A DNA stretch of 64,000 bases from Enoplolaimus lenunculus (lineage: Eukaryota; Nematoda; Enoplea; Enoplida; Thoracostomopsidae): the NCBI GenBank assembly GCA_030248215.1, contig JASANG010002631.1, positions 293,432 to 357,431 of the forward strand. Direction: 5' to 3'. Shown one piece after another: positions 17,404 through 57,011 of the stretch. Every line of letters begins with the position of its first letter. The first letter of the stretch is position 1. Made by a program: the position numbers and the translations under genes. Under the pieces are notes generated by a model. The model ran no database searches and had not been told where the DNA came from. It saw only the letters and a list, made by a program, of their open reading frames with translations.

Positions 17404-20400
17404 ATGGCATCAGCTGATGACCCAGTTTCCGATTTTCTTTCGCGGGAACAAGAGAATTTGGCTGGCATTGACGATGATTTTATCGCCAACGGCCAGAATG
17501 CTGGTAAGACTAAAATCATTTTGCAAGATGTGGTTCACCACGTAGCAAAATTCGAAATCCAAAATTAAATTATAACGTTAAAGTAGAATGTTGAAGAGGT
17601 GGGCTACGTGGCGCAGTGGTAGTGCGCTTGCCTCACAATTCGAAGGGCGTTAGTTCGATGCCCCACTCTGTAGGCCCCCTGTTCCTGGTGCTTAATTAAA
17701 AAGGTCAGGTCAGAAGTCCCAGTTCCTACTTAAACTGAGGTCGGGGCTACGCCGTCAGCGCAATACTACGTAAATTACCGTGCTTTGAATACGGCGTCCA
17801 GTCAAAAATAGGATGGACGGTGAAGGGACGACCTTGTTAAAAATTGGGGCATGTACGTACGTAAACATGTGAGACAATGCACATTGTTATATGTATGCTA
17901 GGCGGCGGCGTTCGGTTGTCGTATAGTCGACGATTTAATTGAAAAGGCGGGCCACGTGTCGCAGTAGTAGACCGCTTGCTTAAAAATAGTTAAGCCGCTA
18001 GTTCGAGTCACCTCTGTATGCCTGCTTTTCCAGATGGTTAATAAGGCGCTCAGGCAAGAAATTTCAAGTACCTATATATTTAGTTAGAATCTTATATATA
18101 TATGTTTTGAAACGGTGTGTGAATGTCTTGGTTTTAAAATACAGGCCGTGATCCTGATACTTTTTCTCGTCAATTTGATGTTTTATTTGTGCGTATCGCA
18201 AATTTTATAAACTGAATAAGCGCAAACGCAGGCCGCAAGCATGCAATCATTTATTCTTCCGCATTTTGATTATTTCTGTTGAGATTGTTTATTTTGGTAG
18301 CAAATGGAGCGATACAGAATGGATTCGATGTATCAGGTGGTTTGAACGATTTTGATCAATTTAATGGACAGCCTAATGGACTAACAACTGAACCAGGAGG
18401 AGAAGATGCCGGATTTCCTTCTGAATTGGCGGTGAGTTTGTATGGTAGAACTTGAAGTTGTTTAAATCTACGGCAATACTAACTTCTAGCAACATTGATT
18501 AAAATTAAAGCTTCAAAATTCAGATTCCTATTGATTGTGGAGAACTCGTTTTGAGACGGAATTCTAGTCGGAATCGGAATTCCGTTTGCACCCCGCCTTT
18601 CTGATCGTCACTCCGTACGTTGGTCCGTCAGACGAGACTCACGATCTCTGAACAGATTTTGATAAACTATTAATTTCTTTGCTAGTTTATTATCCTGGAC
18701 TGTTATTTAAAATCTACAATGTCAAAAACCTATATATAAAGCTTCAGCTGAATATCTCCATCTTGAAATAGAGACAGACTCATCGGTTGCAATTTGGAGT
18801 TGCTTGGAAATGCAGTACCAGCAAAATGTGTGGCATTTAAACATGTAAAAAGCAGTTTTATGAACGATAGTCCGGATCACAACCCCATAAACCGGATATG
18901 GAAGCCAGTTGTTTGCCAGATGTTGAATCGGAACCCCGAATGTCCGATGTTGTTGTGATAGGTGGGTTGGATCATCATGTTATGCGTGGCCTTGCTCCAG
19001 ACCGAGAAATTCGGCTACTTTCTTCGGTTGCTTCCATAAGTCGATCGGTTGCAGAGTTGTAGGGTTAGAAGGGCACTTGAACACGTGCTGCACATCGTGG
19101 GGGCGTGTCTTGCAGCTCGGACACTTGTTTTCGACGGACGAATCTATTTTGCACATGTACGAGTTCAGCATCTTGCTATGGCCCGACCGTAGTTGTGCCA
19201 TTGTGCATCTTGCTTCTCTGCTGAATTCTTTCTCCGACTTTTCGATGTCAGGCGGAGGCCTGCAGAGAACTGCATTGGCGGTGTAATTACTCAGCACGCG
19301 GTTGACGGTGTCGGTGTGAATCGTTTCAAGTCCCTTCTTGTAGTTTCGCGGGTCCATAGAAACATCTGCCCCTTCTTGTATTCGTCGGATTGCTCTGTCG
19401 TATTTTCTGAACGTGCCCTTCATGTTGCGAGGTGGTAGACGCCACTTAGTCAGGTGGTGGCATGGATGAGACTCGCGGCGGCAGCTGAGTAGATACTGTT
19501 TCGAGAGCATCTCCGTGTGTGGTTTGACTGGCAGCATTAAAGTTTCCTGGTGTAGGTGATCGACGTTGGCTGTTTGATGACAGCCGGTGGCTACACGCAG
19601 AGCTTGGTTTTGGGCGAGTTGCAGAGTTTTCCAATTCCGATCGCTGATGACCGGTGACCAGACCGGTTAGCCCCTGCAAGGGCCTTCAGGACATTTGTAC
19701 GCTGTTTGACTTTGGTCGCTTGCTTCGTACAATGTGCTGTGAACGTATACATGGTATCATGGGTGACACCGAGAATTTTGGGAGCCTTCTCCAGCGAAAC
19801 GACAGTGTTGTTTAGCACTACTTGCGGGTGGCGTTGTGCTTCCTTCGTGCTTGGTGTGAAAAGCGTGACGGTCGATTTTTCAGCTGATACAGGTAGGTAT
19901 CTGTCTTCCAGAAACCGGGTAAGTAGAGGAGAATAGTCATTCAACCTGTCCGTCAGCTCATCGATGTTACTCCCATTCGTGTAAATTGAAATATCGTCGG
20001 CGTACATGACCATGTTGACATTCGGAGGCGGTTGAGGTATCGAGTTGAGGTAGAACGTGAATAGCTGCGGTGACGTAACTGCGCCTTGTGGAACCCCCGT
20101 GTGGACGTTGTTAGCTTTTGACAGGATGTTGCGGAAGTTGACTCGAGACTGACGGCCACGTAGGTAGTTGCTGAACCAACGGACGATGGCTCTGGGCATG
20201 GTTGAGCCACAGAGATCCCCTATGAGGGTTTCATGGTCCACCATGTCAAAGGCTTTGGATAGATCGAGTTGAAGAACCACTGTGCGATCTGGGGGAGCGC
20301 GTTGATTGAAGCCATGGCTGATGCTGTGGTTGAGTTCCATTAATGCAGATGTAGTTGAGTGCAGCTTTTTGAAGCCGTGCTGTTTGGGATCTGATGGCAG

Positions 20401-23400
20401 ATGTTGAACTAGCAATGGAAGGAGCAATCGTTCCAGTATTTTGATTGACGGGCATAATAACGACACTGGCCGGTATGACTTTGATGACGACGGGTCCTTG
20501 CCAGGCTTGAGCAGCGGAAGAATTGTGGACATCTTCCATATGCGTGGGATTGCACACCTTTGAAGCGACAGGTTGAAAATGCACGTCAGGTAGTTGATAC
20601 CATGCGGGCCAAGATACTTGAGATGTACTGTTGATATCCCGTCAGGACCGATGGCTTTTGAGGCTTTGGCCAACCCAATTGCGGCTGCGGTTTGGGCTGC
20701 GTTGAACGTTGGTGCATCTTCCAGCGGCATGCGTTTCACTTCTCAGATGAGGGTAAGGTAGGACCTTGAAGACTTGTGTTCCCGTACTTGAGTGAACTGC
20801 TTGTTGAAGAGCATTGCGATCTGTTTGGAACAATTTACACTTTTGCCATTGAACACGATTGCTTGCGTGCCGGTGGTGGAGTCGGCTCCTCTTGTCAGCG
20901 ATTTAATTGTTTTCCACAACTTGTTGGTTGATGTGTGGCAGTCATATGTGCTTAGGTGTTCACGCCACTTCGTTTGCTTGTAACTTTGAACGATGCCTCG
21001 GATTTCGGAGTTCAGCTCGAAGATTCGCTTAGAGTTCGGTTCCCGTTCTCTGAGGCTGTCCCTTTCTTTGGCTAGAGCGGCTGCTTCTTGTGGGTAGTTC
21101 GGCTTGATCTTAGGTATTCTACCCGTAGGAATATGGTGACCCGAAGCCTTGTTGACAATTCTTCTGAATTTCTTTTCTGCTTTTAGCAGCGAGGTCGGGG
21201 GGCTCAGGGCACTGAACTTCTCTTCTGTTTCCGCACAGAAACCATCCCAATCGGCCTTGTTGAGATTTAGGTAGGTTTTACGTTCTGACCATACGAAGCC
21301 AGAATCTTGAGCAAGGGAGATGATCACAGGCAGGTGATCAGAGCTGAGCTTCTTCTCAACGGACCATTCGGTGCACGGCAGCAGGGAATGCGATGCCAGC
21401 GATATGTCCGGCGCTTCTCGGCTAGTAGCTATTGCCAGGTATTAAATCGGAACAGACTGTCCGGTCGATCTCCGGCTAGTAGCTACCAAATTTCCTGAAA
21501 TTGACGAGAATATTGGAATGCGCAATATCCCGAATCGAACCGGGACAATTTAACATGGTATACGTACTCATCAACTTTCGTAATTAATACTTCTCGATTA
21601 AAATTTGGTGGTATCTTTATATATTTGTACTGTTCATTAGAATTTATTGTGATCCATACGGAATTTCAGCAATAAAACTAAGTATATAATATCTAAATTA
21701 CGTATTTATATAATGACCCTAAGAAACTTTTTTGACAAAGTTTTTTATGGTCGTTTTTGTGTTTTTAGTTTGTTGCTTTCGTGACAATCATACTAAAATA
21801 TCCTATAAAAATTGAAAACGGCTGTAACTCCACCGGTTATTCCAATGTACAAATCAATAGCACCAACATAAAGAGCTAACGATTTTGCTTTAGAAAAGTT
21901 GCTAAACTGTTGTATACTAGGCTAGATATAACATTTTTAGCTTGATCAAAATAGTGTTCTGCAAACTAACAAACATTGTGATTTTTGAAAATGCTAGCGG
22001 GTTTTTCAACGGTACCAAATTTTTTATGATCCAGTTATCGTGAAAGTCGTCAAGACTCTTTTCAGTATTTTGTGGACATTTGAAAATGTTCAATTTTCGT
22101 AGGACATTGCTGTGTATATATAATATAGTATTTTGAAAACAAATTACTCAAAGAGGAAGATGTGCATAGCTTTAGTCTTCAGACCAGGGTTCAACAGGTT
22201 GCCAAGAAATACCGAAACTGCATATTTAGGTGTATAGTGCAACAAAAGTTAAAAATTAATCTCCGAGAATGTAGAATACCGGAGGAGGATGTCGTTTCTC
22301 TCAGCTTTCATTTCGTATCATGGCATGGAAATTACCGTGAAAACATGAATAACATGCACTCTGCAACAGATATGTTGAAATACTGATATTACGCATACTA
22401 ATTACAAAGACTCGGCATCAGGGTGCAACCGGAATTACAATTTACCGGAACCGGAACCGGAATTTAAAAATTTTACCGGAACCGGAAACGGAACCGGAAA
22501 GTGAAAAATGCATTTCACCAAAAATTTCATTTTATTCTTATTTTTTGCTCTATTATTTGTGAAATAACCTTAGTCGAACATAGGTATTTATTTTATTTGT
22601 TGTATTTTAGATTTTCGTCGTCGACTGAAGTGAAATCCACCATCATTGGCTTATATTTGGAGTACAAGTGGCTTTCAAAAGAGATTCTTAAAAATTAGCA
22701 AAGTTAAGAAAACGGCCCAATTATAACACCGGAATTTTTAAATCCGGTAAAAATTTACCGGAACCGGAACCGGAAGGTGAAAAAATGCCGGAACCGGAAC
22801 GGGAATTCCGATTGCACCCTGCTCGGCATGTAAATTGTATAATCTCTGAACATTTACTGTTGCGATTCCGGAAAAGTATTTTCTATTTCAATTCTGATTC
22901 CGGTATCATTCCGTTCCCCTTGCACCCTTTTAATATGTTAATTTTAAGGCACCTAGCGACGATGATGTCGGTCAACCTTCAGCAACTGCGATGTCGGCGG
23001 AGAATGACACATCGCGGACGACACCAGTTACCGCAGGTAGCGTAGCTCCCCCGAAAGTTGAAGCCGAAAAAATTCGCATTTGGCGAGAAGAACAAAAGCA
23101 ACGTTTGGAAACAAAAGGTATATACGTTTCTATTAAAAAAGTTTTAACTAGGACTAGTGAGAATACGGGTTGAGTTAAGAGCCAATTGGTGTTATATAGA
23201 ATCCATTTCCGTGTTTGACTTACCTCTTCTGAAAAAGAACATTTATGTGTTACAGGTATCAATAAGAACATAAAATTCAGACGAAATTAAAATTCGTGTT
23301 ATATTGGGTACATTGTTCACTTTTCATATTTGTAGATGCTAATGAGGAAGTCGACAAAGCAAAACTTCGGGATGTTGCAAAGAAAGATCTTCAAGAATGG

Positions 23401-44742: not shown

Positions 44743-44840
44743 ATAAAAGTGTTACAGGTTAGCAGTATGTATACATATTGGCACCAAAAATTTTTGATTC
44801 ATGCCGAGAACATTTGATAAGCTGTCGTTGGTTTTGTTAC

Positions 44841-45359
44841 CTTTCTGCTTCTCCTTTATCTTCGTTTTCGATCGACTCCATGCGCGATGCGGTGGGCTGC
44901 ATAGCCGTCCTCGCGATTGTAATACACGACTTTTTGAAATAGCTCTTGATCTAGAGCGAGACCGGAGCTGTCGTGCTTTGAAACCATTATCAGTTGTGCT
45001 CGAATCCAATTTTGACTGACTCCATGAGTGCAGGGATGGGCTTCTCAGCCGTTGGCTATGAAGATCTTTCAAATCGCAATCATGCTCATTCGCATAACTT
45101 ACACGCCCCCCAAACGTTGTAGGTCCGCGGGACTGGGATCTGCCATTTTTTGAAACACTTTTTGAACTATAACGAGATTGCCGCTGCTGTAATACGAAAT
45201 CACTACCAATTGCCCCCGAAGCATTCTTCGGCCCGCTCAGTGAATGTGGTTTAGTAGCTTCTGAGCTATAGCGAAGCTGATCCGCCTCTGATTCAAAACC
45301 ACTACCAGTTGTTGCCGCATCAACTTTCGATCGACCCCATGACTGCGGCGATGGGCTAC
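44841..45359 (-). CDS. RS-rich exon, part downstream of the BEL/Pao insertion
   Basis: On the minus strand this is the 3' part of an exon cut by the retrotransposon. Reading across the insertion site, counting the 5-bp duplication once, the frame continues without a stop from 54164 into 45359. It runs to a donor at 44841|44840 (AAAG|GTAACA). The protein repeats a pattern of GRSQSRG, HDC, and SPSPQSW/SPSLHSW/SPPHRAW blocks, with an RSRSRSR tract. The strong GTGTAAGT word inside could act as a cryptic donor. Function unknown; RS-rich tails occur in RNA-binding and splicing proteins, which is inference only. Confidence 0.6.
45355..45359. repeat. Target-site duplication GCTAC (left)
   Basis: GCTAC at 45355-45359 is repeated at 54164-54168 immediately outside the second LTR, the 5-bp duplication expected for BEL/Pao integration. 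Confidence 0.95.
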
Positions 45360-45505
45360 TGTCAGAAAATTGAATTCTGAATCGGAACTAAAAATACCGA
45401 TATGAAAATATAATAAAATAGTTAGTTTGACTTTTCGTTTTGACGAAATATAGTAAAATAAAATTATTGTTGTATACAACAAATAAAGTCAACAAATTTA
45501 TCACA
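45360..45505 (+). repeat. 5' LTR (146 bp)
   Basis: Begins TGTCAGAAAATTG and ends TTTATCACA. It has several TATA/AATAAA-like words (AATAAAATAG, AATAAAATT, AATAAAGTC) that could serve promoter and polyadenylation roles. Matches 54018-54163 base for base by eye. Confidence 0.95.
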
Positions 45506-45525
45506 TGGTCCTTCGGACTGGCCGG
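45506..45525 (+). other. Primer-binding site region
   Basis: TGGTCCTTCGGACTGGCCGG begins directly after the LTR with TGG, the complement of the tRNA CCA end. The cognate tRNA could not be assigned because the later bases do not fit a simple 18-nt match to a standard acceptor and T-arm. Confidence 0.6.
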
Positions 45526-45641
45526 ATTCAGTCGTGTATTTAATGAATTTGCACCAATTTAGCATGTCGACCGTTGTTGTGGTCAAATAAGAAAATTTTA
45601 TATTTGGCGTTATTCGTTAAAGTGTTATTTTATTGTGATAT

Positions 45642-45652
45642 AAAAGGTAAGT
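45642..45652 (+). promoter_or_regulatory. Strong splice donor in the retrotransposon leader
   Basis: AAAAG|GTAAGT at 45642-45652 is a near-perfect 5' splice site. It sits between the primer-binding site and the first gag ATG (45707), the position of the major donor in retroviruses that make spliced env RNA. Its natural partner here is the acceptor at 52821-52822. Confidence 0.65.
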
Positions 45653-45706
45653 GTGAATTTTATTTCAATAAATCTGTTGTTTGAAAACGTTGAAAGCTTT
45701 CGGAAA

Positions 45707-46948
45707 ATGTTCGAAAAACAAATTTTGGTTCGAAAACAACAGAGAAATGCTGTTCAACTAAATGCAAACAAAGAGATTGCAAAAACAGAAACATGTTCTG
45801 ATTGTAAAAATGTTACAGAGGATAGCATTTTAAAACTGAAAATATGTCTGAAAAAACTAGAAGAATATCGTGAACGATTAAAAGAATTGAATGAGGAAAT
45901 ATTAATGAAGGCGGAGCCAGAAGATATAGAAGGCGAAATCCAAAAGTCCGAGGATTTCGATGAAATTATTTTCGATAAAATAAATTATTTGAAGCTAAAA
46001 ATAACACAGTGGGAGACGCAAAAAGATACTGAAAATATGTGCGATTTGAAATCAGTGATATCGGAGACAGCTGAATTTTCAGCTGTGAAATTACCGAAAC
46101 TGAATATGCAGAAATTTAATGGCGACGCGATTGAATGGCAAAGTTTTTGGGACAGCTATGAGTCAACAATACATTGTAACAATAATTTAATACCAGTTGA
46201 AAAATTTCAATATTTGCGTGGTCTATTAGATAACGAAGTATTACGTGTAATTGATGGTTACAGAGTTACAGGAGCGAATTACGAAGTAGTTATAGACATT
46301 TTGAAAGAACGGTATGCAGATCCACAAATAGCAATTTTCGCGCATTTTGAAGCAATGTTAAATCTCCAAGTAGCAAATCATGAAGTTTCGCAATTGCAAA
46401 AAGTTTGCGATGAATGCGAAAAACACATTCGCAGTTTAGTTGCTCTGGGATTGCCAGAGAACACATTTGGTCAGGTTTTCACGCCGATATTGCTTTCAAA
46501 ATTGCCAAAGTTTGTCAGAATGGAGTTGCATAGGCGCAACGGATCTGAAAAATGGAGCTTGAGTAAGCTACGAGAGTTACTGAAGGACGAAATTCACGCT
46601 AGAGATATGTCGGAACGTTCTTTTGCTTCCCAGAAAAGAGAAAAACAAAATTCTAAAGATGGCAACAATGAGGACAAATCTGCGAACAAAAATAGGTTTA
46701 AGGCAACAACGTCCGCATTATTGACATCTGAAAGTAAAAGACGATGCGCATATTGCAGAGAACAACATTTTTCTGATGAGTGCAGTAAGTTTAAAACAGT
46801 GAAAGAGCGCAAGATTGAAATGAAAGGGAATTGTTTTTCTTGCTTGAGAAAGGTCACAATGCTCGTGAATGCAAGAAAAAGAAACAATGCTACCACTGTA
46901 AAGCGGAAGGCCATCACAGAAGTTTGTGTTTTCAAAAATTTGGAATAA
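45707..46948 (+). CDS. BEL/Pao gag (DUF1759-like, zinc knuckle), frame change at the end
   Basis: The frame is open from 45653, but 45707 is its first ATG. A coiled, Lys/Glu-rich N-terminus precedes a DUF1759-type capsid-like core (LPKLNMQKFNGD, WQSFWDSYESTI, KFQYLRGLL, LSKLPKFVRMEL). A Cys-rich zinc segment starts at CAYCREQHFSDEC. The second half of the zinc cluster (GHNAREC, CYHCKAEGHHRSLC) is in the -1 frame starting near 46845. The switch falls inside the zinc-binding cluster. It could be a programmed -1 shift making gag-pol or a one-base deletion in this copy. Confidence 0.88.
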   Translation: MFEKQILVRKQQRNAVQLNANKEIAKTETCSDCKNVTEDSILKLKICLKKLEEYRERLKELNEEILMKAEPEDIEGEIQKSEDFDEIIFDKINYLKLKITQWETQKDTENMCDLKSVISETAEFSAVKLPKLNMQKFNGDAIEWQSFWDSYESTIHCNNNLIPVEKFQYLRGLLDNEVLRVIDGYRVTGANYEVVIDILKERYADPQIAIFAHFEAMLNLQVANHEVSQLQKVCDECEKHIRSLVALGLPENTFGQVFTPILLSKLPKFVRMELHRRNGSEKWSLSKLRELLKDEIHARDMSERSFASQKREKQNSKDGNNEDKSANKNRFKATTSALLTSESKRRCAYCREQHFSDECSKFKTVKERKIEMKGNCFSCLRKVTMLVNARKRNNATTVKRKAITEVCVFKNLE

Positions 46949-47962
46949 AAAATTACAAACAAAAAAGTGAAACACAGCTTAGCACTTCCGAATTAAATAC
47001 CAACGTAGATGAAACCAATATCTCGGTTGATAATTCGTTGCTTTCTCACGGAGAAAAAGCAGTATTGCAAACTGCTGTTACAACTGTTGAAGGTATTTCG
47101 ACAATGAAAGCAAGATTGTTGTTTGATACAGGGGCTTCTAGGTCCTTTATCACTACTAAACTTAGATCAAAAATTAATGCCAAATTTGTTGGCAAAGATA
47201 CTGTATCAATAGCCGGCTTTGGACAAAACAAACGTAAAACGTTGACATATAAATCTTACGAATTTAAAATAAAATTAAGAAATGGAAGTGAACAGACAAT
47301 TGTGGCAAATGAAATTGAAACAATATCTTGCCCAGTGCAAAAAGTTCCTTTAAACGTGGCTGATCACCCTGTTTTAAAAGTGATACCTTTAGCAGAACCT
47401 CTATGTGAAAAGCCACATTTAGTTGACATTGATATTTTAATAGGTAGCGATTATTACTACGATTTCGTTGGTTCAGAACAAATACGGTGTCCTGGAGGAT
47501 TAGTATTTTTATCGTCGACATTAGGATATCTGGCAGCAGGGCGAACTACAGCTAGAAACGATACAGGTAGTATTTTGACTATGTTGTTTCTAGAAACTGA
47601 TGTTACGCCAACATTTGATGTAGAGCGGTTTTGGAAACTTGAAGATATAGGTATAAAAGATACGCCATCTAGGAATGATGATGAAATAGCGATAAAGCAA
47701 TTTAATGAAACGGTGAAGTACGATCAGGGTCGATACGTTGTCAAATGGCCATGGAAAACCGAGCATCCAGAACTGTCGGATAATTATGTTTTGGCCCGAG
47801 GCAGACTTAATTCTCAGGTAAAAAGATTGCAGTCTAACAAAGAATTGTTGCTAAGATATCACGAAACAATACAAAATCAACTAGATAAAAATATTATTGA
47901 ACTAGCACCAGAAAAACCAGACGGTCAAGTAGTACATTATCTGCCACATCATGGTGTCGTTA
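46831..47962 (+). CDS. BEL/Pao pol, 5' part: zinc knuckle end, aspartic protease, start of RT
   Basis: This frame takes over from gag at the zinc cluster. The protease signature is LLFDTGASRSFI. The RT leader (PLSDNYVLARGRL-like spacing, then YLPHHGVV) follows and stops where the DNA transposon begins at 47963. Frames beyond that point to 48057 translate transposon sequence and are not retroviral. Short gaps between enzyme domains match BEL/Pao polyproteins. Confidence 0.85.
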
Positions 47963-49699
47963 TGCGTCATCCATTTTATCGTGTGCCCGCCGTGTGGAAA
48001 ATTGACGCAACCATTTCCAAGTACGGTTTTGAAAAACGGTTCAAGAAGGAAATTTAATTTGAAAAAATTGGTCTAGTGGGAAATTGAGACAATTTACAAA
48101 CCGTACTTGTAAATTGAAATGATATTTTGAGTGTCGATTTCCCAATGGGGAATTTAAATAGGACAGCAGTAGGAAATTGAGACATTTTTAAAACTTAAAT
48201 AGGAAATTGATAAGCTAAATTTGCTGTCAAAAAGGAAATTGAAAAGTCACCAAAACTGCAGTGGGAAATGGGCACCCAAATTTCATTTTCAATTTCCCTC
48301 ACGGTAGTTGAAAATCAGCAGGGCAGTGGGAAATTGAAAAAATCATAAAAGCGGAAACACTGCTGTAGGTACATGACCTTTGAACTAATCGGTGCAATAA
48401 TTCGCTTTCAACTATGACGGCAGGCGTTTTCGACGTCGGAAGTGAAAGAAAGATTTGGGTGGGATAACCGATCACTCAGACAAGGAATGAGTTTTTCCAT
48501 TTTTCCATTTTTTCCGGTCATAATTTTTTTCCGGAAAAAACAATCCAGGGGCGGTAACCGTAGCCCTAAGTCTAAATCTTAGCCTAAGAAGCACTAAGTA
48601 TAGGAAAAAGTGGCTGACGTTTAGGGGGCGTGATGTCTGAAGTAATTGAGCCCAATTCTCGATCATGGTTCTTAGTTCTGTAAACGCCTGTGAAGTCTGT
48701 CTGGTATACATTTACGTAGCAGGGTGCAACCGGAGGTGAAAAATACCGGAGCCGGAGCCGCAGGTGGGGCGAAATTATGTAGTAAAAATGATGGCTAATT
48801 AGTTAATTTTAGCCAATATCTGCAATATGTTGTTAAGTTGTTTGGTTTTATGTTGATTTTTTGAAAAGTGACAGAAGTCAATCGAAACGAACTAAACAGA
48901 TAATTTTTGCTAAATTATGCAAAACTATTAACACTAATAAATCTTCGCTCGTTTCGTCTATATTCTTAATTAGATCGTAGACACGTTCGGACATAGTAAG
49001 TTCAACGTGACTATATGCGGTTTCAGTTTGCGGGGGATACCAATTGCAATCACCAATCCTTGAATCAATATACCGTCGTACTCCATAAAAAGTAACTCCA
49101 ATGTGCGCAAAAAAATTGCTGTTCCAATTTTAAACCCAACCTCAGTAAAACTGGTAGCACAAGAAACTTGACCCCAAGCGTCGAATGACCACTAACGTCA
49201 AGATATTCAAAATTTCAATCGCACAACTTCAACCTTGCGACTTGGGTGGCCCATCAAACATCATTTCTAGAAACTCTCATCCTAACCTTCTATTTGAACT
49301 TTGAGTTGTAAAATTTCATCCTTTTAGGGGACAATATCACAATTGAAATTGTAAACTGTAAATTCAATTTTCGATAAGAGGGACAATATCATTTAATTGC
49401 TAAACGTTATGCTTCTCTTTCAATTTCCACTTTGGTAATTGAAGTGTCAAGGCAAAGCGGAAATTGAATTTGGAAAATGACGCAATTTCCCATTGCCCTT
49501 GTTTAAAAAAGCGCTAGTGGTAAATTGAAGATCAAATAATGCTATCAATTAACTACTTGATTTTGAAAAATCGATAGCTGTGGGAAATTGAAACAGTTTT
49601 GAAATTCCATTTCCTTTTTGAAGCGTTTTTCAAAACCGTACTTGGAAATGGTTGCGTCAATTTTCCACACGGCGAGCACACATTAAAATGGATGACGCA
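47963..49699. mobile_element. Non-autonomous TIR transposon (1737 bp, TTA duplication) nested in RT
   Basis: The ends TGCGTCATCCATTTTA and TAAAATGGATGACGCA open inverted repeats that stay almost identical for about 95 bp (CGCCGTGTGGAAAATTGACG, ACCATTTCCAAGTACGG on both sides). The host site TTA is duplicated at 47960-47962 and 49700-49702. Removing the element and one TTA leaves the RT frame open. Sub-terminal regions carry many GGGAAATTGA words in mirrored orientation. No transposase is visible. A TTA/TWA duplication suggests PIF/Harbinger, which is inference. The middle contains an edge of another family (CAGGGTGCAACCGGAGGTG, 48720). Confidence 0.92.
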
Positions 49700-49701
49700 T
49701 T

Positions 49702-52700
49702 ACTCCAAATAAAACAACTACTAAATTACGCATTGTGTATAATGCATCCGCAAAATCTAACAAAACTGAAAATAGCTTGAATGAAAGTTTGTACCGAGGA
49801 CCAGTAATGTTGGAAGATTTATGCGGACTATTAATTAGATTTAGATTACGAAAAATTGCAGTTGTTAGTGATATTGAAAAAGCGTTTCTACAGGTTGCGC
49901 TACATATAGCAGATCGAGATGCTGCTAGATTTTTATGGCTGAAAGATCCGTTGAGGTCACCAGATAAAACGAATGTAGTATGCTATCGGTTTACAAGAGT
50001 ACTATTTGGTGTTGTGTCTAGTCCATTTTTGCTGGCAGCAACTATTCGGCATCATTTGAAATCTGTTGGTGGGTTCGTTGGCGCACAAATCATGGATAAT
50101 ATGTACGTCGATAATGTTGTTGTGACATTTGATAACGATGATGATTCAGCAGATTTTTATAAAGAAGCAAAACGTTTGTTTGAAATAGCTGGAATGAATC
50201 TTAGAGAATGGTATTCAAATAGCGAACTGTTTGTTTCAAAAGTTTCGTCAGAAGATCGTGGAGTAGATAAAAATGTCAAAATACTAGGCATGGTTTGGAA
50301 TACGCAAACCGATACTTTACATTTTAATGATTGTATTATTGATGGAAATGCTGTCAATACAAAAAGACTATTGTTACAAGCAATCGCCAAGATTTTCGAT
50401 CCGTGTGGATATGCTGCGCCAGTTGTTGTGCGCGGAAAGATGTTGATGCAAGAAGTTTGGCGTAAGAAATACGATTGGGATAGCGAGTTGCCAGAATCGA
50501 TAAAGCAACAATGCAGAAGCTTTTTTGCAGATTATTCGAAACTTAAAGAAGTTGTTATTCCACGAAGAATTCGGGGGTGTGTACAAAACGCCATAACTTT
50601 AGAACTTCACTGTTTTTGTGATGCATCAAGCAAAGCATACTGTGCGGCTGTATATTTACGTGTCGGTATTACCAACAATTTTAAGACTGATTTACTGTTC
50701 TCAAAATGTCGGATTAGTCCGTTAAAAGAACAAACAATTCCGAAATTAGAACTTATTGCAATTGTCATAGGTGTACGAGTACTCAAGTATGTTGAGTCAC
50801 AGTTACGCATGAACGTACAAAAGAAGTATATTTGGTCTGACTCACAGTGTGCGTTACACTGGATTCTAGGAAAACAAGTATCGACAGTTTTCGTAAGGAA
50901 TAGAGTACTAGAAATAAAGTCGTTTAAAGATGTAGAATTTCGTTATGTACCAACTGAAAGTAATCCAGCAGATATTCCAACAAGAGGGATGGATTTTGAC
51001 CAGTATTGCAAGTCGGAATTGTGGTGGTACGGTCCAATTTGGTTGAGCTCAACAGAATCCAGTTGGCCACATGCTTTCGTGCTAAAAAATAAGAAGGTTC
51101 CAAACATAAAGGATTATGAAAACACTAGTGAACAACAGTTGAATATTGACACAACAAATCACGAATGTTTTGTAACAATTTCACAGTTTTCTTCAGTTCA
51201 ACGGCTGTATAGAGTTGTTACTTGGGTACTTCGATTTATTACAAGTTGTAAAAAGCATAACAAAACACTCGGAGTGCTGAAGGCTAGTGAAATAGCTGAA
51301 GCAAAAACAGCTGTCGAAAAAGTAGTTCAGCAACAAGTTTTCGGCGAATTGTTACAAAGTAGTGAACAGAAAGCTCGCAACTTAGTAAATCAATTAGGTT
51401 TGTTTACAGGAAAGGATGGTTTAATTAGATGTTCAGGTCGGATAGAAAATGCTGATATGGGTTTTGATGCGAAGTTTCCGAAGTTATTGCCAACAAATAC
51501 TGATTTCACAAGATTAGTTATAATGCATTTTCATGAACGTACATTTCACAGTGGAGTAGAACATACACTTTCGAAGGTAAGAGAAGAATATTGGATACCA
51601 CAACGTCGCAGTCAAGTAAAAAAGGTGATTAGCCAATGTCGGATATGCAGATTGATAGAAGGTAAATCGTATAAAACTCCACCAGCTCCTCCGTTACCAT
51701 TATTTAGAGTTACACAGGGTAGACCATTTTCATGCACGGGCGTCGATTATTTAGGCCCGTTGTATATTAATACGTCTCATACAGGTCAGAAGTGCTGGCT
51801 TTGTCTGTTCACCTGTGCTCGAGTACGTGCTGTTCACGTTGAAGTTATTTACGATTTATCAAGTGTACAGTTTTTGTTGTGCTTTCGACGATTTGTTTCG
51901 TTTTATGGTTACCCAGAAATTGTAGTTTCTGACAACGCAACTACTTTTCGAAAATCAAAGTTGATATTGGATAAACTGTTTCTTGAAATATACAAAAGTG
52001 ACGAAGTCCGAAACTTCGCAGCTAACTCAAAAATAGAGTGGAAATTTATAACAGAGCTTGCGCCTTGGATGGGCGGGTTTTACGAAAGACTGATTGGTTT
52101 AGTTAAACGAGCGCTTAAGAAATCTTTACTTCGAAGCAAAGTCAACTTGTCGGAACTCCAAACATTAGCTTATGAAATAACTTCTATGTTAAACAGTAGA
52201 CCCTTAACATATGTGCAAACCGAGATTGGCATATCTTCGTTAACACCAGGACATTTTTTGGGCAAGCATGAAGCGAATTATGGTAATATATCCGGTAAAA
52301 CCGTGTCGAATAAACAAGGAAAACATGATGACCTGATTGTGCAGTGGAAACGTATAAATTCATTGCTGAATAAATTTTGGGACATTTGGAAGCGGGAATA
52401 TTTGTTAGCATTAAGAGAATGCACTTCAATTCCTAGTCAGCGTAACAAAACGTCGACTGGTCCAAAACGTGGCGAAATTGTTTTGGTTGATGACAATTGT
52501 TACAGGTCAACATGGAAATTGGCAAGAATTATTGAACTTCATAGTAGTGCAGACGGAAAATGCCGTTCTGCGACTTTGTGTTTGTCGTCTGGTAAAATGA
52601 TTAGACGCCCCATCAAGAAGTTGTTTCCGCTTGAGGTTGATCAAAATACAAATAGTAATTCGTGTATTGCGGAAGATCAAGGATCGTTAACTAACGACAA

Positions 52701-52764
52701 GAGAAAATGTGCAGAAATTGCTGCACAGCGAATTGGTTCTTACTTCAAACGAAAACATAAATAG
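49702..52764 (+). CDS. BEL/Pao pol, 3' part: RT, RNase H, integrase
   Basis: After the nested transposon the frame continues to a stop at 52764. RT motifs are VVSDIEKAFLQV, LFGVVSSPF and MYVDNVVV. The last has Asn where most RTs have the second Asp of YxDD, a variant I recall in some Pao-type elements but cannot verify. RNase H follows (LHCFCDASSKAYCAAVY, ELIAIVIGVRV, WSDSQCALHWI). The integrase has an HHCC zinc region (HFHERTFHSGVEH...CRICR) and a DDE core (CTGVDYLGPLYI, VVSDNATTF, PWMGGFYERLIGLVK). The C-terminal segment (RGEIVLVDDN, RSTWKLARIIEL) is the usual BEL/Pao integrase tail. Confidence 0.93.
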   Translation, partial: TPNKTTTKLRIVYNASAKSNKTENSLNESLYRGPVMLEDLCGLLIRFRLRKIAVVSDIEKAFLQVALHIADRDAARFLWLKDPLRSPDKTNVVCYRFTRVLFGVVSSPFLLAATIRHHLKSVGGFVGAQIMDNMYVDNVVVTFDNDDDSADFYKEAKRLFEIAGMNLREWYSNSELFVSKVSSEDRGVDKNVKILGMVWNTQTDTLHFNDCIIDGNAVNTKRLLLQAIAKIFDPCGYAAPVVVRGKMLMQEVWRKKYDWDSELPESIKQQCRSFFADYSKLKEVVIPRRIRGCVQNAITLELHCFCDASSKAYCAAVYLRVGITNNFKTDLLFSKCRISPLKEQTIPKLELIAIVIGVRVLKYVESQLRMNVQKKYIWSDSQCALHWILGKQVSTVFVRNRVLEIKSFKDVEFRYVPTESNPADIPTRGMDFDQYCKSELWWYGPIWLSSTESSWPHAFVLKNKKVPNIKDYENTSEQQLNIDTTNHECFVTISQFSSVQRLYRVVTWVLRFITSCKKHNKTLGVLKASEIAEAKTAVEKVVQQQVFGELLQSSEQKARNLVNQLGLFTGKDGLIRCSGRIENADMGFDAKFPKLLPTNTDFTRLVIMHFHERTFHSGVEHTLSKVREEYWIPQRRSQVKKVISQCRICRLIEGKSYKTPPAPPLPLFRVTQGRPFSCTGVDYLGPLYINTSHTGQKCWLCLFTCARVRAVHVEVIYDLSSVQFLLCFRRFVSFYGYPEIVVSDNATTFRKSKLILDKLFLEIYKSDEVRNFAANSKIEWKFITELAPWMGGFYERLIGLVKRALKKSLLRSKVNLSELQTLAYEITSMLNSRPLTYVQTEIGISSLTPGHFLGKHEANYGNISGKTVSNKQGKHDDLIVQWKRINSLLNKFWDIWKREYLLALRECTSIPSQRNKTSTGPKRGEIVLVDDNCYRSTWKLARIIELHSSADGKCRSATLCLSSGKMIRRPIKKLFPLEVDQNTNSNSCIAEDQGSLTNDKRKCAEIAAQRIGSYFKRKHK

Positions 52765-52787
52765 CTGCTATTGAGCTAATGGAGTTT

Positions 52788-52822
52788 TTGTTTTGTTTGT
52801 TATTTGTCTAAATTATTTTCAG
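52788..52822 (+). promoter_or_regulatory. Strong splice acceptor upstream of the env-position gene
   Basis: A T-rich tract (TTTTTGTTTTGTTTGTTATTTG) runs into ATTATTTTCAG, with AG at 52821-52822. The first ATG downstream is at 52831, only eight bases later, and starts the NADAR-like frame. Together with the donor at 45646 this would join the leader directly to the extra gene. Confidence 0.65.
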
Positions 52823-52830
52823 ATTTCGGT

Positions 52831-53451
52831 ATGGCTCGAACAATATGTGTGCAAGCAAATCATCCGCTTTCAAGATTTTACGCTTACCCAATTTTACCGT
52901 TGAAAAATATAACAGTAACGTCTATCGAAATGGCATTTTGGTTTATTATGCTTATACAACATAAAAACGAATTGCTGGCTTATGCTATGATAAAAGAACA
53001 GCATTTGCAATGGAATCCGACTATTATTCCGTCTTGGTTAAAAACACGAAACTTCAAATTAAATGCTGATTGGATATGCCAATCAGAAGAAATTTTCAAA
53101 GTAATATTGGCAGAACAAATGTCGCGTTCAGAGAGTGCTTTCCGTACCGAATACATGCGAATTGTCGGAGATGCTTCTGAAGATATACATTTTATTGTAT
53201 GTAGTCGAAAAAACGAAATGGTTTGGTCTTCAGGTTGGCCGTTAAGTAGTAGTGCAAAATATGGTAGGTTTCCCGGTTTCAATTTGTACGGTAATTTGTT
53301 GAGTCAAATGGTGCAAGTGGTACGCGATTCAGTAATGAATGTACATTTTTCACTAAGTTATCTTATGGAAAATGTTTATAATTTTGAGGAAACATCAAAA
53401 CACACAGTGTTGATATTGTCAGACAGTCAGTGTCGTTATTTAGAAAATTGA
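52831..53451 (+). CDS. Env-position gene, part 1: NADAR-like domain and start of an SGNH domain
   Basis: This 206-residue frame resembles NADAR (YbiA/DUF1768) proteins, which act on ADP-ribose/NAD-derived metabolites and on ADP-ribosylated nucleic acid. Matching points in order are LSRFYAYPI (like LSNFYPSPI), TSIEMAFWF with E33 at the family's conserved Glu, IVGDASEDIHFIVCSRKNEMVW (like the TGD...E-S-...-WG segment), and NLYGNLLSQMVQVVRD (like NLLG-x-LLM-x-VRD). After residue 190, TVLILSDSQ looks like GDSL block I with Ser199 as nucleophile. A TGA then ends the frame and the rest of the esterase is in the +1 frame. Not an envelope protein: no signal peptide, Cys pattern or anchor. The NADAR call is by pattern only. 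Confidence 0.65.
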   Translation: MARTICVQANHPLSRFYAYPILPLKNITVTSIEMAFWFIMLIQHKNELLAYAMIKEQHLQWNPTIIPSWLKTRNFKLNADWICQSEEIFKVILAEQMSRSESAFRTEYMRIVGDASEDIHFIVCSRKNEMVWSSGWPLSSSAKYGRFPGFNLYGNLLSQMVQVVRDSVMNVHFSLSYLMENVYNFEETSKHTVLILSDSQCRYLEN

Positions 53452-53989
53452 CGCAGGAAATGTGTACGCAATTTCTGGAGCAAAATTTAGTAGCATTGCT
53501 GATTTAATTGTTACGAAACGTTTGAATTTGGCGGATTACAAGTTTGTTATTATAAACTGCGGAGTTAATGATGCACAACGGAGCAAAAGGTTCCAGGTAC
53601 AATCTTGGAACGCTTTGAAAACAATTTTAGAAAAAGTAAGTTGCAGCGTTGGAGCAAAAATAGTTTTGAGTACAGCAATACCGATGCCTGGAATACGTGG
53701 TGTCAAAGAACATTCTGAATGGATTCGAACTCAAGTTGCTAATATGCCGATTCACTGTATAATGTGGGGCAGCTTAAATTCACCGTTCGTGACAAATGGA
53801 AATATAAACCGTGAGCTGTTTGAAAAAGACAACTTTCATGTCAGTCATGCTGGGTTTAGAAAGCTATGGATTGAATGGTGTAAAGTTGTACCAGAACTAA
53901 AATTGGTTTCATATTCGCTTTCGAAGTACATGTATAGTAAGCAAGAATTTCAACGAAAGCGGCGGTTTAGTCAAATAGATCGCAAATAG
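53449..53989 (+). CDS. Env-position gene, part 2: remainder of SGNH/GDSL esterase-like domain
   Basis: The frame is open across 53440-53989 and its first ATG is 53462. It carries GAKFSSIADLI (block II region), FVIINCGVNDAQ (block III GxND with catalytic Asn) and DNFHVSHAGF (block V DxxH with catalytic Asp and His). With Ser199 of part 1 these complete an SGNH catalytic set. The break between the parts falls at an AAAATTG run after TATTTAG, so a one-base change would split what was a single NADAR-SGNH protein. SGNH esterases are known in ORF1 of CR1-type LINEs; this arrangement in BEL/Pao is what makes it notable. Ends with a basic tail (FQRKRRFSQIDRK). Confidence 0.7.
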
Positions 53990-54017
53990 TTACGTGTTTT
54001 GTTGCTTCCGTCGGGAG

Positions 54018-54163
54018 TGTCAGAAAATTGAATTCTGAATCGGAACTAAAAATACCGATATGAAAATATAATAAAATAGTTAGTTTGACTTTTCGTTTTG
54101 ACGAAATATAGTAAAATAAAATTATTGTTGTATACAACAAATAAAGTCAACAAATTTATCACA
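54018..54163 (+). repeat. 3' LTR (146 bp)
   Basis: Matches the 5' LTR in length and, by eye, at every base. It is preceded by a short purine run (CGGGAG) that may be the polypurine tract and followed by the duplicated GCTAC (54164-54168). Confidence 0.95.
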
Positions 54164-57011
54164 GCTACACAGCCGTTGGCCATAAGTACCATACAAGCCA
54201 TGATCACGCTGTTGTGCCACATTAGCTTGCCCTCGAAACCTAGAAGATCCGCGCGATTGCGATCGGCCACGTTTTGAAGCACCTCTGGTTTTATAGCAAG
54301 AATCTTGCTGATTTAGTTTAACACTACTATCAATAATCCATGACCGTGGCGATGGACTTCTCCTCGACTGTTGGCTATGGGGCCCGTATGAATCACAATC
54401 ATGCTGATTGACCAAGCTACCTCGCCCTCCAATTCGACCAGAAGATACAATCGATGCTGATCTGCCGCTTTTTGGAGTTATCTTTGACCTGGAGCGAGGC
54501 TTACGGTGCTGAGTTGTAGCCCCACCAGTTGCTGAATACAACTGATTACAATCTTCTGTTGATCGATTGTAATCGTGACGTTCAATTTTTCCGTCGTTTT
54601 GCAGAATGTGTACAGGAACATTATTCGTCACAGGAGGCGACAAGTGCCAACTGCTGCGGTCTGTTACAGTTGATTTGTTCCAATGTTCATCATATCGTTT
54701 CGAAGTTGTTACCGCCTTATAATTCGTCCGAAAGTCGTGTTCAGACGTTTTCTCGTCAAATTGATGGTTGTCATTACCTAAATCACATTGGAATGCTTGT
54801 TGTTGTTTTTGTTTACGGCGCATCTTCCGCCGAACGTTTCTACTCAACCTGGTCTTGTATTCGGTACTGTTGCCTATGCTGTTGTTGCTCGAGCATAAGT
54901 TCTGAGTTGTAAGTGACGATATTGATGATGCCGTAGTAAACGAGCGATCTTGATTTATCGAAGATTTATTACCTGTACTGTGTTTAAAATTGTCATCGTA
55001 ATCACTACAATTTGCAACACTGAACTCTTCCTTCAGTAATTCATTGCGACGACTTAAATGTGAAATTGAATTTTGATCAAAAACCTCGGAATACGCGGTG
55101 AAACCACATTTGCTGCCCTGTTGTAAGCGTACACTTTCAAGATATCTGTCGCAAGGCGTAGTTGACTCACTTGCATAAACCGTACTTCTGTCTGAATATG
55201 CCGCCGATGAGATTGAGCTTTTCCCGGCATACAGTTCAACGTTCTTAGCTTCATTCATTCGGTCGTTGCAAACAAACTTTTCTGAACCCGAGGCATCATG
55301 TTTACTCAAACCGCAACGACTGGCACTCCTTGAATTAAACGTTTTCTTTGCAGCAGCCAGTTTTGCATGTGTATATTTATAATCCATGTTATGACACAAT
55401 ATCTCATGATCATAATCGGCACCATAATAAATCTCTTCGCGTTTAACCTGGTTGTCGCTGTTGCGATACTCTGTTTCGGCATTATCTCCAACAATTGAAT
55501 CTATTGCAGAACTATCATTCTTTAGTTTATGGTAATGGTGCGCTGCCATAGCATACTTATAGTTGTCGCCAAATTCGTTCGCCATCCACTGATCGTATTG
55601 ATATGTGCCAGCATTCTGTTCGTTTTGTATATTTGGCTTTTCATTTAGACTTGCCCGTACGTCACTGTTTCTCGCAATTTCTCCGCAGGACCCAGTAATG
55701 CCAACTGAGTTGCCACTTCCTCGCTTCAAATCTCTAGCTATCGCTTTTGATTTTGAAACCAGTTTAGCCCATTCTGTCGTTCTCAAAACGGGTTGTGTCT
55801 GAGCATCACTTCTTACTGCCGAGATCATACCTGTGATTTTCTGGTTTCTTTTGTCGTTTGCTAAAAATTCACCGCTGTCGCTACTGAAACTTGTTCGTCT
55901 TTCATAGCAGTCGCGTTCTTCATCCCAATCATAACCATTACAAACAAACCTAATCTCATTCATAATGCTGAACCTGTTATTTTCTTTTTCACCATGATCG
56001 CTGTCGACGTCATTGTCTTTGGTTTCAATAATCTTGCCCTTCTTGTAACCCGAGTTTTTCTCATGTTCAGCACTAATGTTTCTGTTTGGAGTTTTTTCTT
56101 GATATCGTTCGGTTGATTATCAAAACCGCTGCTTATGTTTTTCGCACAGTTATTGCTAGTTTTCTCAAAATTCCTTTCCTTCATAATGCTGTCAGTTCGT
56201 TCTCTGTCCTTGTCTTACCTCTTACTATCGCTATTTCTGCAATTGTTGCTCTTACTCACACTACTATCAACAGCACCCACTCCGCGATTCAATTCAACCC
56301 TATTGCCTCCGTTGTTCTTTTTGTCATCATTACTTTTGATGTCGCTGCTGCTTCTGTTATTGTTGTTTTTATTGTTGCTGTTGTTGTTACTACTGCTGCT
56401 GTTCTTGTTTATTTTACCTCGCCTTTCGTCTTCTGAGACAGTAAGTGTCAGCAAAGCTTCCGCTTTAGTCGTTGCTGTTTTCGGTTTACCAGAAAATCCT
56501 TTATCATAACTTTGTGCCACATTGTATCGAACTGCATCACTTGATGGCTTTTGTCCCGGTATTTGGTGTTTTTGTTGCTGTTGTTGTTGATGTTGTTGCG
56601 TAACTAGCGTTTCAATACCTTGTACAGTTCCAGGCGTCAAAAGCCACACCATCGATGCGCGATTAATAGTAGCTAGATCAGTTGTTGTTTGAGCAGTATT
56701 ATCAACGAAATCCCCATGGCTTATTCCTGAAGCAAGATCTCGTTCAGTTGTAGGCAAGCGGCTGGATTTGAATAGTAGCGAGCGGTTATAAACACTGCTG
56801 AAGACAGTATCCCTATCACAGCTCTCCAAAAGCAATTGAGACGACCAAGACGACTTGAGAACACAACCGACCTCACGACCAATGAGAACAGTTAAATCTT
56901 GTTTGGCGAATGCTAATCGAGCGTCTGTAATAAAATGTGTTTTTGTGGTACCCTGGTAGCAAACGGAAAACAGAGAACGCGACATATTTCTTAGAATTAA
57001 GCATGATGGTG
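54164..57011 (-). CDS. Long Q/N/S- and RS-rich exon(s) of an unrecognised gene, cut by BEL/Pao
   Basis: Minus strand. A first block (57011-56219) has LLILRN-type ordered sequence, a QQHQQQQQQKHQ run and a long Ser/Asn tract. It ends at a clean donor AG|GTAAGA. If the intron is 56218-56082 (acceptor AAACAG), both the TAA at 56215-56217 and the frame change near 56090 disappear. The second block (56081-54164) is one continuous frame, Ser/Asn/Tyr/Asp-rich, ending in RS repeats (KPRSRSKITPKSGRS, RSPSPRSW, KRGRSQSRGSSR), and is interrupted by the LTR element. The join to the upstream exons is unresolved: 57012-57348 has no phase-compatible exon that I could fix. Function unknown. Confidence 0.6.

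Follow-up and report, generated by a model that had tools for sequence, protein, structure and literature searches.

A NADAR-related and SGNH-esterase-like gene behind the integrase of BEL/Pao retrotransposons in the nematode Enoplolaimus lenunculus

What can a BEL/Pao retrotransposon carry in the env position, and what would such a gene do there? The question is raised by a 64-kb stretch of contig JASANG010002631.1 of the nematode Enoplolaimus lenunculus (the window, numbered from its first letter), in which one complete BEL/Pao element occupies positions 45360-54163 on the plus strand. Two adjacent frames lie behind its integrase, frame a running from an ATG at 52831 to a stop at 53451 and frame b being open from 53444 to 53989. 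A first-pass annotation, made from the letters alone, had read these frames as a NADAR-SGNH gene in the env position. Its coordinates were reproduced, and its placement of a NADAR-related and SGNH gene within BEL/Pao is borne out by the domains of the element, its long terminal repeats (LTRs) and the linkage of the gene to integrase. A BEL/Pao lineage is shown here to carry a third gene, open reading frame 3 (ORF3), of about 390 codons, between the integrase and the 3' LTR.

The two frames overlap by a few bases and are one gene, frame-broken in the window copy, and not two genes, because relatives carry both halves in a single frame. Intact single-frame copies, for which the first-pass annotation had proposed a search, were found elsewhere in the genome (296 Mb in 3185 contigs). 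Frame a as query gave 83 matches. Copies of the window's own family (L002 and L003) with both halves in a single frame are among them, and many others show roughly 30% identity and lie in open frames of some 400 codons; a full-length relative as query gave at least 108 matches. Seventeen intact relatives, each a distinct family, carry ORF3 as one frame of 385-414 codons. This set of 11 element families and six solo copies, with near-duplicates excluded, is the basis of all residue counts below.

The linkage of ORF3 to integrase is recurrent. With the integrase as query at least 110 matches were obtained, of which 97 rows were kept and merged into 76 places. Among the matches listed, ORF3 lies downstream of integrase, on the same strand and within 2.5 kb, at 43 of the 54 places of at least 900 nt and at 53 of the 76 places of any size; merging of the ORF3 matches gave 82 places, 53 of them downstream of an integrase place and 29 lacking one, the latter including contig ends, fragments and solo copies. 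These counts are lower bounds, since 105 of 219 candidates were scored in the integrase search and 106 of 125 in the ORF3 search. Rows left out beforehand (13 of 110 for integrase, 15 of 108 for ORF3) were by eye fragments beside kept rows, and 14 of the 83 rows from the frame a search were entered, the others being at places already entered. L002/C1122, whose neighbourhood is rearranged, was scored as solo or unlinked in both the tree and the linkage count; it belongs to the window's family and stands outside the six solo copies.

Other families share the structure of the element. When 5' and 3' pieces were compared, LTR pairs 96-100% identical were present at seven of nine other loci, and the two loci without a pair are solo copies. 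Inspection by eye shows a 5-bp duplication at C400 and C94 but none at C940, C1008, C457 or C1044; C189 has one provided that its 3' LTR is taken to extend one base further. Integrase pieces of other families contain DUF5641 in 6/6 and H2C2 in 5/6 cases, and gag pieces contain DUF1759 in 3/3. Furthermore, integrase and ORF3 distances over ten element-borne families are correlated (r = 0.83, reached by 2 of 2000 permutations), as expected if ORF3 travelled with pol. A public search found no ORF3 relatives at E<=1e-3 with frames a and b (21 and 27 candidates), and viral contigs searched with one ORF3 family gave none.

The window element shows the BEL/Pao domains (DUF1759, DUF1758, reverse transcriptase, Peptidase_A17 and an H2C2 + DUF5641 integrase) and the BEL/Pao ends (TG..CA LTRs, a primer binding site and a 5-bp target duplication), arranged as follows:

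45355-45359 and 54164-54168: left and right copies of the target site duplication GCTAC, at both element ends
45360-45505, plus strand: 5' LTR, 146 nt, TG...CA, identical to the 3' LTR
45506-45525, plus strand: primer binding site (TGG...), adjoining the 5' LTR
45647-45652, plus strand: splice-donor-like GTAAGT (AAAG/GTAAGT) in the leader 5' of gag, putative donor of the ORF3 messenger RNA (mRNA)
45707-46948, plus strand: gag, DUF1759 (9.9e-33)
46819-48057, plus strand: aspartic protease frame, DUF1758 (8.5e-10), with a weak zinc-knuckle match (0.14)
47959-49703: nested insert interrupting pol of the window copy, foreign to the element proper, with 107-nt inverted arms that are 92% complementary
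49696-52764, plus strand: pol frame with reverse transcriptase (7.3e-7), Peptidase_A17 (1.9e-52), integrase zinc domain H2C2 (4e-12) and DUF5641 (7.8e-17)
52816-52822, plus strand: splice-acceptor-like TTTTCAG, 8 nt upstream of the ORF3 start, putative acceptor
52831-53451, plus strand: ORF3 frame a, NADAR-like half and SGNH block I (LSDSQ)
53444-53989, plus strand: ORF3 frame b, the same gene in a shifted frame, with the remaining SGNH half (GVND, DNFH) and a basic tail
54018-54163, plus strand: 3' LTR

The start of the primer binding site, TGGTCCTTC, is common to the window element and six of the seven other families with LTR pairs. At 146 nt the LTRs are shorter than the 0.2-1.2 kb quoted for BEL/Pao (PMC8742986), and their identity suggests that the insertion is recent.

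Six intact copies of ORF3 are solo copies (L018, L051, L061, L062, L063 and L065), and they bear on the direction in which the gene has moved. No integrase lies in the 1.3-1.4 kb upstream of them, and no match to BEL gag, reverse transcriptase or integrase was obtained anywhere in the sequence examined, with positive controls included; sequence further upstream was covered for L018 and L065 only, between 3.6 and 7.6 kb from the gene. No flanking LTR pair was found in the flanks compared, L018 having one 35-nt repeat. Four of the six form one clade, with a ratio of nonsynonymous to synonymous substitution rates (dN/dS) of 0.12-0.22 in 6/6 pairs and, by halves, of 0.11-0.25 where computable. Moreover, L061 and L062 have collinear non-coding flanks in common on both sides, as in duplicated genes. 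Judged from these features, the four-member clade looks like a set of host genes. In the diverged copies L061, L062 and L063 the stretch CACCAATCCGTAT is conserved some 20-40 nt upstream of the ORF3 start, where it might serve a host gene family as promoter or leader motif.

The same four copies give some weight to the opposite direction of transfer, in which ORF3 was originally a host gene family, represented by the solo copies, and was later captured by BEL/Pao: they are free of recognisable BEL genes and LTR pairs in the sequence examined, have the dN/dS values given above, and two of them share their flanks. The tree, however, groups L051 with a BEL-borne ORF3 (support 100) and makes the four-member solo group sister to a BEL-borne clade (support 95), with BEL-borne ORF3s on deep branches, though it is midpoint-rooted and its deep nodes are weak (9-56). 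Domestication of ORF3s is the simpler reading of the solo copies, and capture from the host, the most serious of the rival explanations, is in our judgement unlikely without being far-fetched.

What the protein might do is best approached from its C-terminal half, which from its motifs would be an esterase and which has its catalytic residues in place. The SGNH set named in the first-pass annotation was recovered in full, with SDS at the end of frame a and GVND and DNFH in frame b, and the Ser, Gly, Asn and Asp/His blocks stand in the expected order. Across the families the Ser, the oxyanion Asn and the His are each present in 17/17, and the block-II Gly and the catalytic Asp each in 16/17. 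Frame b matches Pfam Lipase_GDSL_2 at 2.9e-6 and 28.3 bits, below the gathering score of 32.9, and the same family is listed for 14 of the 17 ORF3 proteins at E<=10, with a best value of 3.8e-6. A nine-row profile of the SGNH half searched against the PDB gave as its top match 4c1b, an 'ORF1-encoded protein' (2.1e-7), followed by GDSL-family proteins (2.3e-3 and 0.022). We take 4c1b to be the esterase of the zebrafish long interspersed nuclear element (LINE) ZfL2-1, the ORF1 protein.

GDSL alone is already known in retrotransposons, as is NADAR alone. The zebrafish ZfL2-1 ORF1p esterase is hydrolytically active and binds phospholipids that carry a negative charge (PMC3905857). It resembles ORF3 as an SGNH esterase inside a retrotransposon protein, but it has a Gag-like position 5' of the reverse transcriptase and a coiled-coil partner, and NADAR is unmentioned in the relevant sections of that source. 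Similarly, Vesta LTR retrotransposons of bdelloid rotifers carry a GDSL ORF3 (PMC5408684), which like the gene described here is a third frame behind pol of an LTR retrotransposon, has intact catalytic residues and is reportedly without transmembrane domains. Vesta elements differ in forming rotifer-specific lineages and in having GDSL alone or with a DEDDy exonuclease, no NADAR being named in the sections of that report concerned with them.

The N-terminal half is recognisable at the level of profiles. No NADAR match was obtained for frame a in Pfam, or in the PDB at E<=10, for any of the 17 intact ORF3 proteins searched singly against Pfam at E<=10 (0/17), for a 17-row ORF3 profile searched against the PDB with HMMER, or for ORF3 in PHROGs. 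Profile-profile comparison with hhalign of the 17 ORF3 N-termini with 121 NADARs (nine, including E. coli YbiA, and 112 public ones of 120 found) gave E 1.3e-6, a probability of 91% and 136 collinear columns, and the homology spans the whole domain. The score was 47.9, whereas the highest among 200 column shuffles was 21.3 (best E 0.023) and seven unrelated alignments did not exceed 18.0 (E 0.12 or worse); two reversals gave E 0.25 and 0.27. Seven NADARs of the same genome alone gave 8.5e-9, four public NADARs with 27-32% identity to YbiA gave 2.2e-6, and NADAR was found separately by the 11 element-family N-termini (8.7e-5) and the six solo N-termini (7.3e-5). Thus the profile check proposed in the first pass came out empty with single sequences against Pfam and PDB and positive between profiles. 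Most of the landmarks then listed also stand, in that LSRFY, SIE, E..VW..G and G.N.YG of frame a align with NADAR motifs; IVGDASED lies off the motif, and the true match is NEMVWSSG just behind it.

NADAR proteins undo guanine ADP-ribosylation (PMC11125620), and in the E. coli C7 NADAR this reaction is catalysed by Glu88, Lys95 and Asp171 (PMC11543638). Their counterparts in YbiA were taken to be positions 48, 55 and 125, from the spacing and because the same paper equates Asp171 with Glu125 (PMC11543638). A Lys of this kind, together with an acid that is replaced by His in phages, is described as catalytic (PMC11543638, PMC11125620). In YbiA numbering, taken from one low-identity alignment, the equivalent of Lys55 is Lys in 0/17 families and that of Glu125 is an acid in 0/17. 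Glu48 is kept in 14/17, Asp130 is Glu or Asp in 17/17, and Trp133 (11/17), Gly141 (17/17), Asn143 (16/17) and Gly146 (17/17) are retained to differing extents. By these residues the N-terminal half would be a NADAR-derived domain and not a catalytic NADAR. Removal of ADP-ribose by it is doubtful because two of three catalytic positions are lost, as far as the low-identity alignment tells, and a binding role appears likelier; that NADAR is kept in families lacking the catalytic Lys and acid points to such a use.

The proposal that this half removes ADP-ribose is consequently disfavoured in all 17 families, and the 'two-enzyme module' of the first-pass annotation was too strong, because the catalytic NADAR positions hold no Lys and no acid; one enzyme and a NADAR-derived domain fit better. 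The same residues make it improbable that ORF3 is a counter-defence hydrolase whose NADAR half strips host-added ADP-ribose from element RNA, complementary DNA or proteins, with the esterase as an auxiliary. What speaks for that explanation is the reversal of guanine ADP-ribosylation by NADAR proteins (PMC11125620) and the fact that true NADARs are very common in the genome, Polinton-like loci included, which suggests repeated recruitment by mobile elements.

Such recruitment has precedents. NADAR occurs in Ectocarpus Gypsy elements, at the N-terminus of Pol, and in ORF1 of oyster Tx1 LINEs (PMC12477816). These cases are like ORF3 in that retrotransposons have taken up NADAR; they differ in element class and position, no SGNH partner is named in the pertinent passages of that source, and their NADAR is a highly conserved YbiA-family domain, whereas ORF3 has lost two catalytic positions. 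The nematode protein SNA-3 has three NADAR domains and is a host nuclear protein of SL1 trans-splicing (PMC9303266). It is like ORF3 an animal NADAR protein, with one domain lacking key residues, and unlike ORF3 it lies outside any element, SGNH being unmentioned in the corresponding text. Viral NADARs are described from phages, large DNA viruses, nidoviruses, hepe-like viruses and picornaviruses (PMC9503650).

How ORF3 could be expressed is suggested by motifs at both ends of a putative intron. TTTTCAG, which stands just ahead of ORF3 in the window, is the nematode splice-acceptor consensus. TTTYAG ends within 30 nt upstream of the ORF3 start in 14/17 families (9/11 element, 5/6 solo). It is found so placed at 12 of 733 other ATGs and in 52 of 2080 control windows, and shuffles of the same pre-start stretches give a mean of 0.84 and a maximum of 4 in 17. 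The donor pattern GTRAGT is found in seven of eight leaders against 0.55 expected from the sequence that follows, the C400 leader being set at 400 nt, as no gag frame was found, and that of C940 being cut at 230. With a weighted donor score, the observed value was reached by 0 of 500 shuffles in the window, 6 in C94 and 29 in C1044, and by 160, 203, 206, 221 and 497 in the other five leaders. ORF3 is thus probably expressed from a retrovirus-like spliced mRNA. The acceptor might instead take a spliced leader, in a trans-splicing host.

A position behind integrase with an acceptor-like site just upstream of the start also recalls env, and an esterase that opens or fuses membranes could let particles leave or enter cells; help with membrane passage has been considered for the bdelloid GDSL ORF3s (PMC5408684). 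Env genes are present in few BEL/Pao elements, where their function is called unknown (PMC8742986, PMC3118150), and some LTR elements that lack Env are known to have a different protein for transmission (PMC11952523). A hydropathy scan of 24 ORF3 proteins, made without a dedicated signal or membrane predictor, showed no clear signal or membrane segment. Only three proteins have windows just above 1.6, namely L008 (1.71, inside the esterase half) and L061 and L062 (1.64, at residue 27). By this simple scan the product does not look like an Env with signal peptide, transmembrane segment and fusion glycoprotein, and envelope-like work seems to us as improbable as the counter-defence hydrolase.

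The reading we favour, with moderate confidence, combines these elements. The leader donor would be joined to the acceptor just upstream of the ORF3 start, as for retroviral env, and the product of the spliced mRNA would be soluble and intracellular. Its SGNH half would be a working esterase, and its likeliest targets, in line with what has been proposed for the LINE ORF1 esterase, would be lipid or acyl groups that the particle or its RNA encounters. The NADAR half, having lost catalysis, would recognise or bind ADP-ribose, NAD-type ends or a protein partner, and as a NADAR-derived binding module it could position the esterase. At least one group of pol-less copies would now seemingly be kept as host genes.

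Several results weigh against this reading. The NADAR relationship is visible by profile-profile comparison only, and the 112 public, mostly YbiA-like NADARs alone give a marginal E of 0.0087. A single low-identity alignment underlies the residue assignments, and with Glu48 missing in 3/17 families ligand binding itself may differ between them. Matches to GDSL in Pfam are weak, with 1.2e-6 as the best value. The TTTYAG acceptor is missing in 3/17 families; both it and GTRAGT were picked after some sites had been seen, and its p value is therefore too good. A stricter acceptor matrix finds 8/17 families compared with 26 of 1058 control windows and 15 of 743 other ATGs, and the weighted donor score stands out in only two of the eight leaders. 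Usable dN/dS values come from solo copies only, since dS is saturated between element-borne families, and three near-identical pairs give 0.44-0.89 with few changes.

A more speculative use of the two halves can be imagined, which we rate as a long shot: an ADP-ribose-reading NADAR half could bring the SGNH esterase to ADP-ribose ester bonds and so undo a host ADP-ribosylation response. In this picture the worn NADAR half would retain a pocket of the ADP-ribose type but would not cut N-glycosidic bonds. The targets of the esterase would be esters on acidic side chains, acyl-ADP-ribose or ubiquitin esters on ADP-ribose, and in the solo copies the host would have its own form of this tool, serving its own regulation. 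Least credible is a chance likeness to NADAR, the N-terminal half being an unrelated domain with a few common motifs, which would suit the missing HMMER matches in Pfam and PDB and the weak result with the 112 public NADARs alone but not a score above every shuffle and unrelated alignment or the agreement of subsets on both sides.

No report of the NADAR-SGNH pair was found among the papers listed from the open-licence literature, subscription papers, Repbase reports and supplements lying outside the search. ORF3 adds a recurrent accessory gene type to BEL/Pao and unites two domains that retrotransposons were seen to take up separately. The solo copies allow its function to be tested as that of ordinary genes. 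Moreover, the abundance of NADARs in this single genome, at several kinds of mobile-looking loci, makes the role of ADP-ribose chemistry in the conflict between animals and mobile elements testable.

The surroundings of the window element offer further observations. It splits one long serine/arginine-rich frame on the minus strand (44752-45387 and 54122-56116). Once the flanks are rejoined across the insertion site, the minus strand reads open for 851 codons, without a Pfam match, and the element therefore sits in what reads as a coding region. The nested insert at 47959-49703 measures 1745 bp, has no listed frame of more than 100 codons on either strand and is perhaps a non-autonomous DNA transposon. 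A separate reverse transcriptase frame at 19591-20742 on the minus strand (RVT_1, 7.5e-31) is not part of the window element. The window contains no transfer RNA and no RNA family at the gathering threshold.

True NADAR domains (PF08719) gave at least 151 matches in the genome, with 150 of 335 candidates scored. Loci L027-L031 and L033 resemble Polinton/Maverick elements, a Pox_A32-like ATPase and a TBP domain being named by Pfam in L027 only and recognised in L028-L031 and L033 by similar frames. At L022-L026 and L032 the NADAR gene lies behind an SF1-helicase-like frame in a repeated unit, AAA_12 being named by Pfam in L022 only. Among public proteins, P0018 and P0041 have a terminal NADAR, the only domain that Pfam names in them, behind a first part that by eye is LINE ORF1-like. 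Finally, L082 (G000:C122:3400-5200) is a serine/arginine-rich frame of 2853 codons with two NADAR stretches (Pfam, 1.2e-25) and, as suits a nematode genome, resembles the description of SNA-3.
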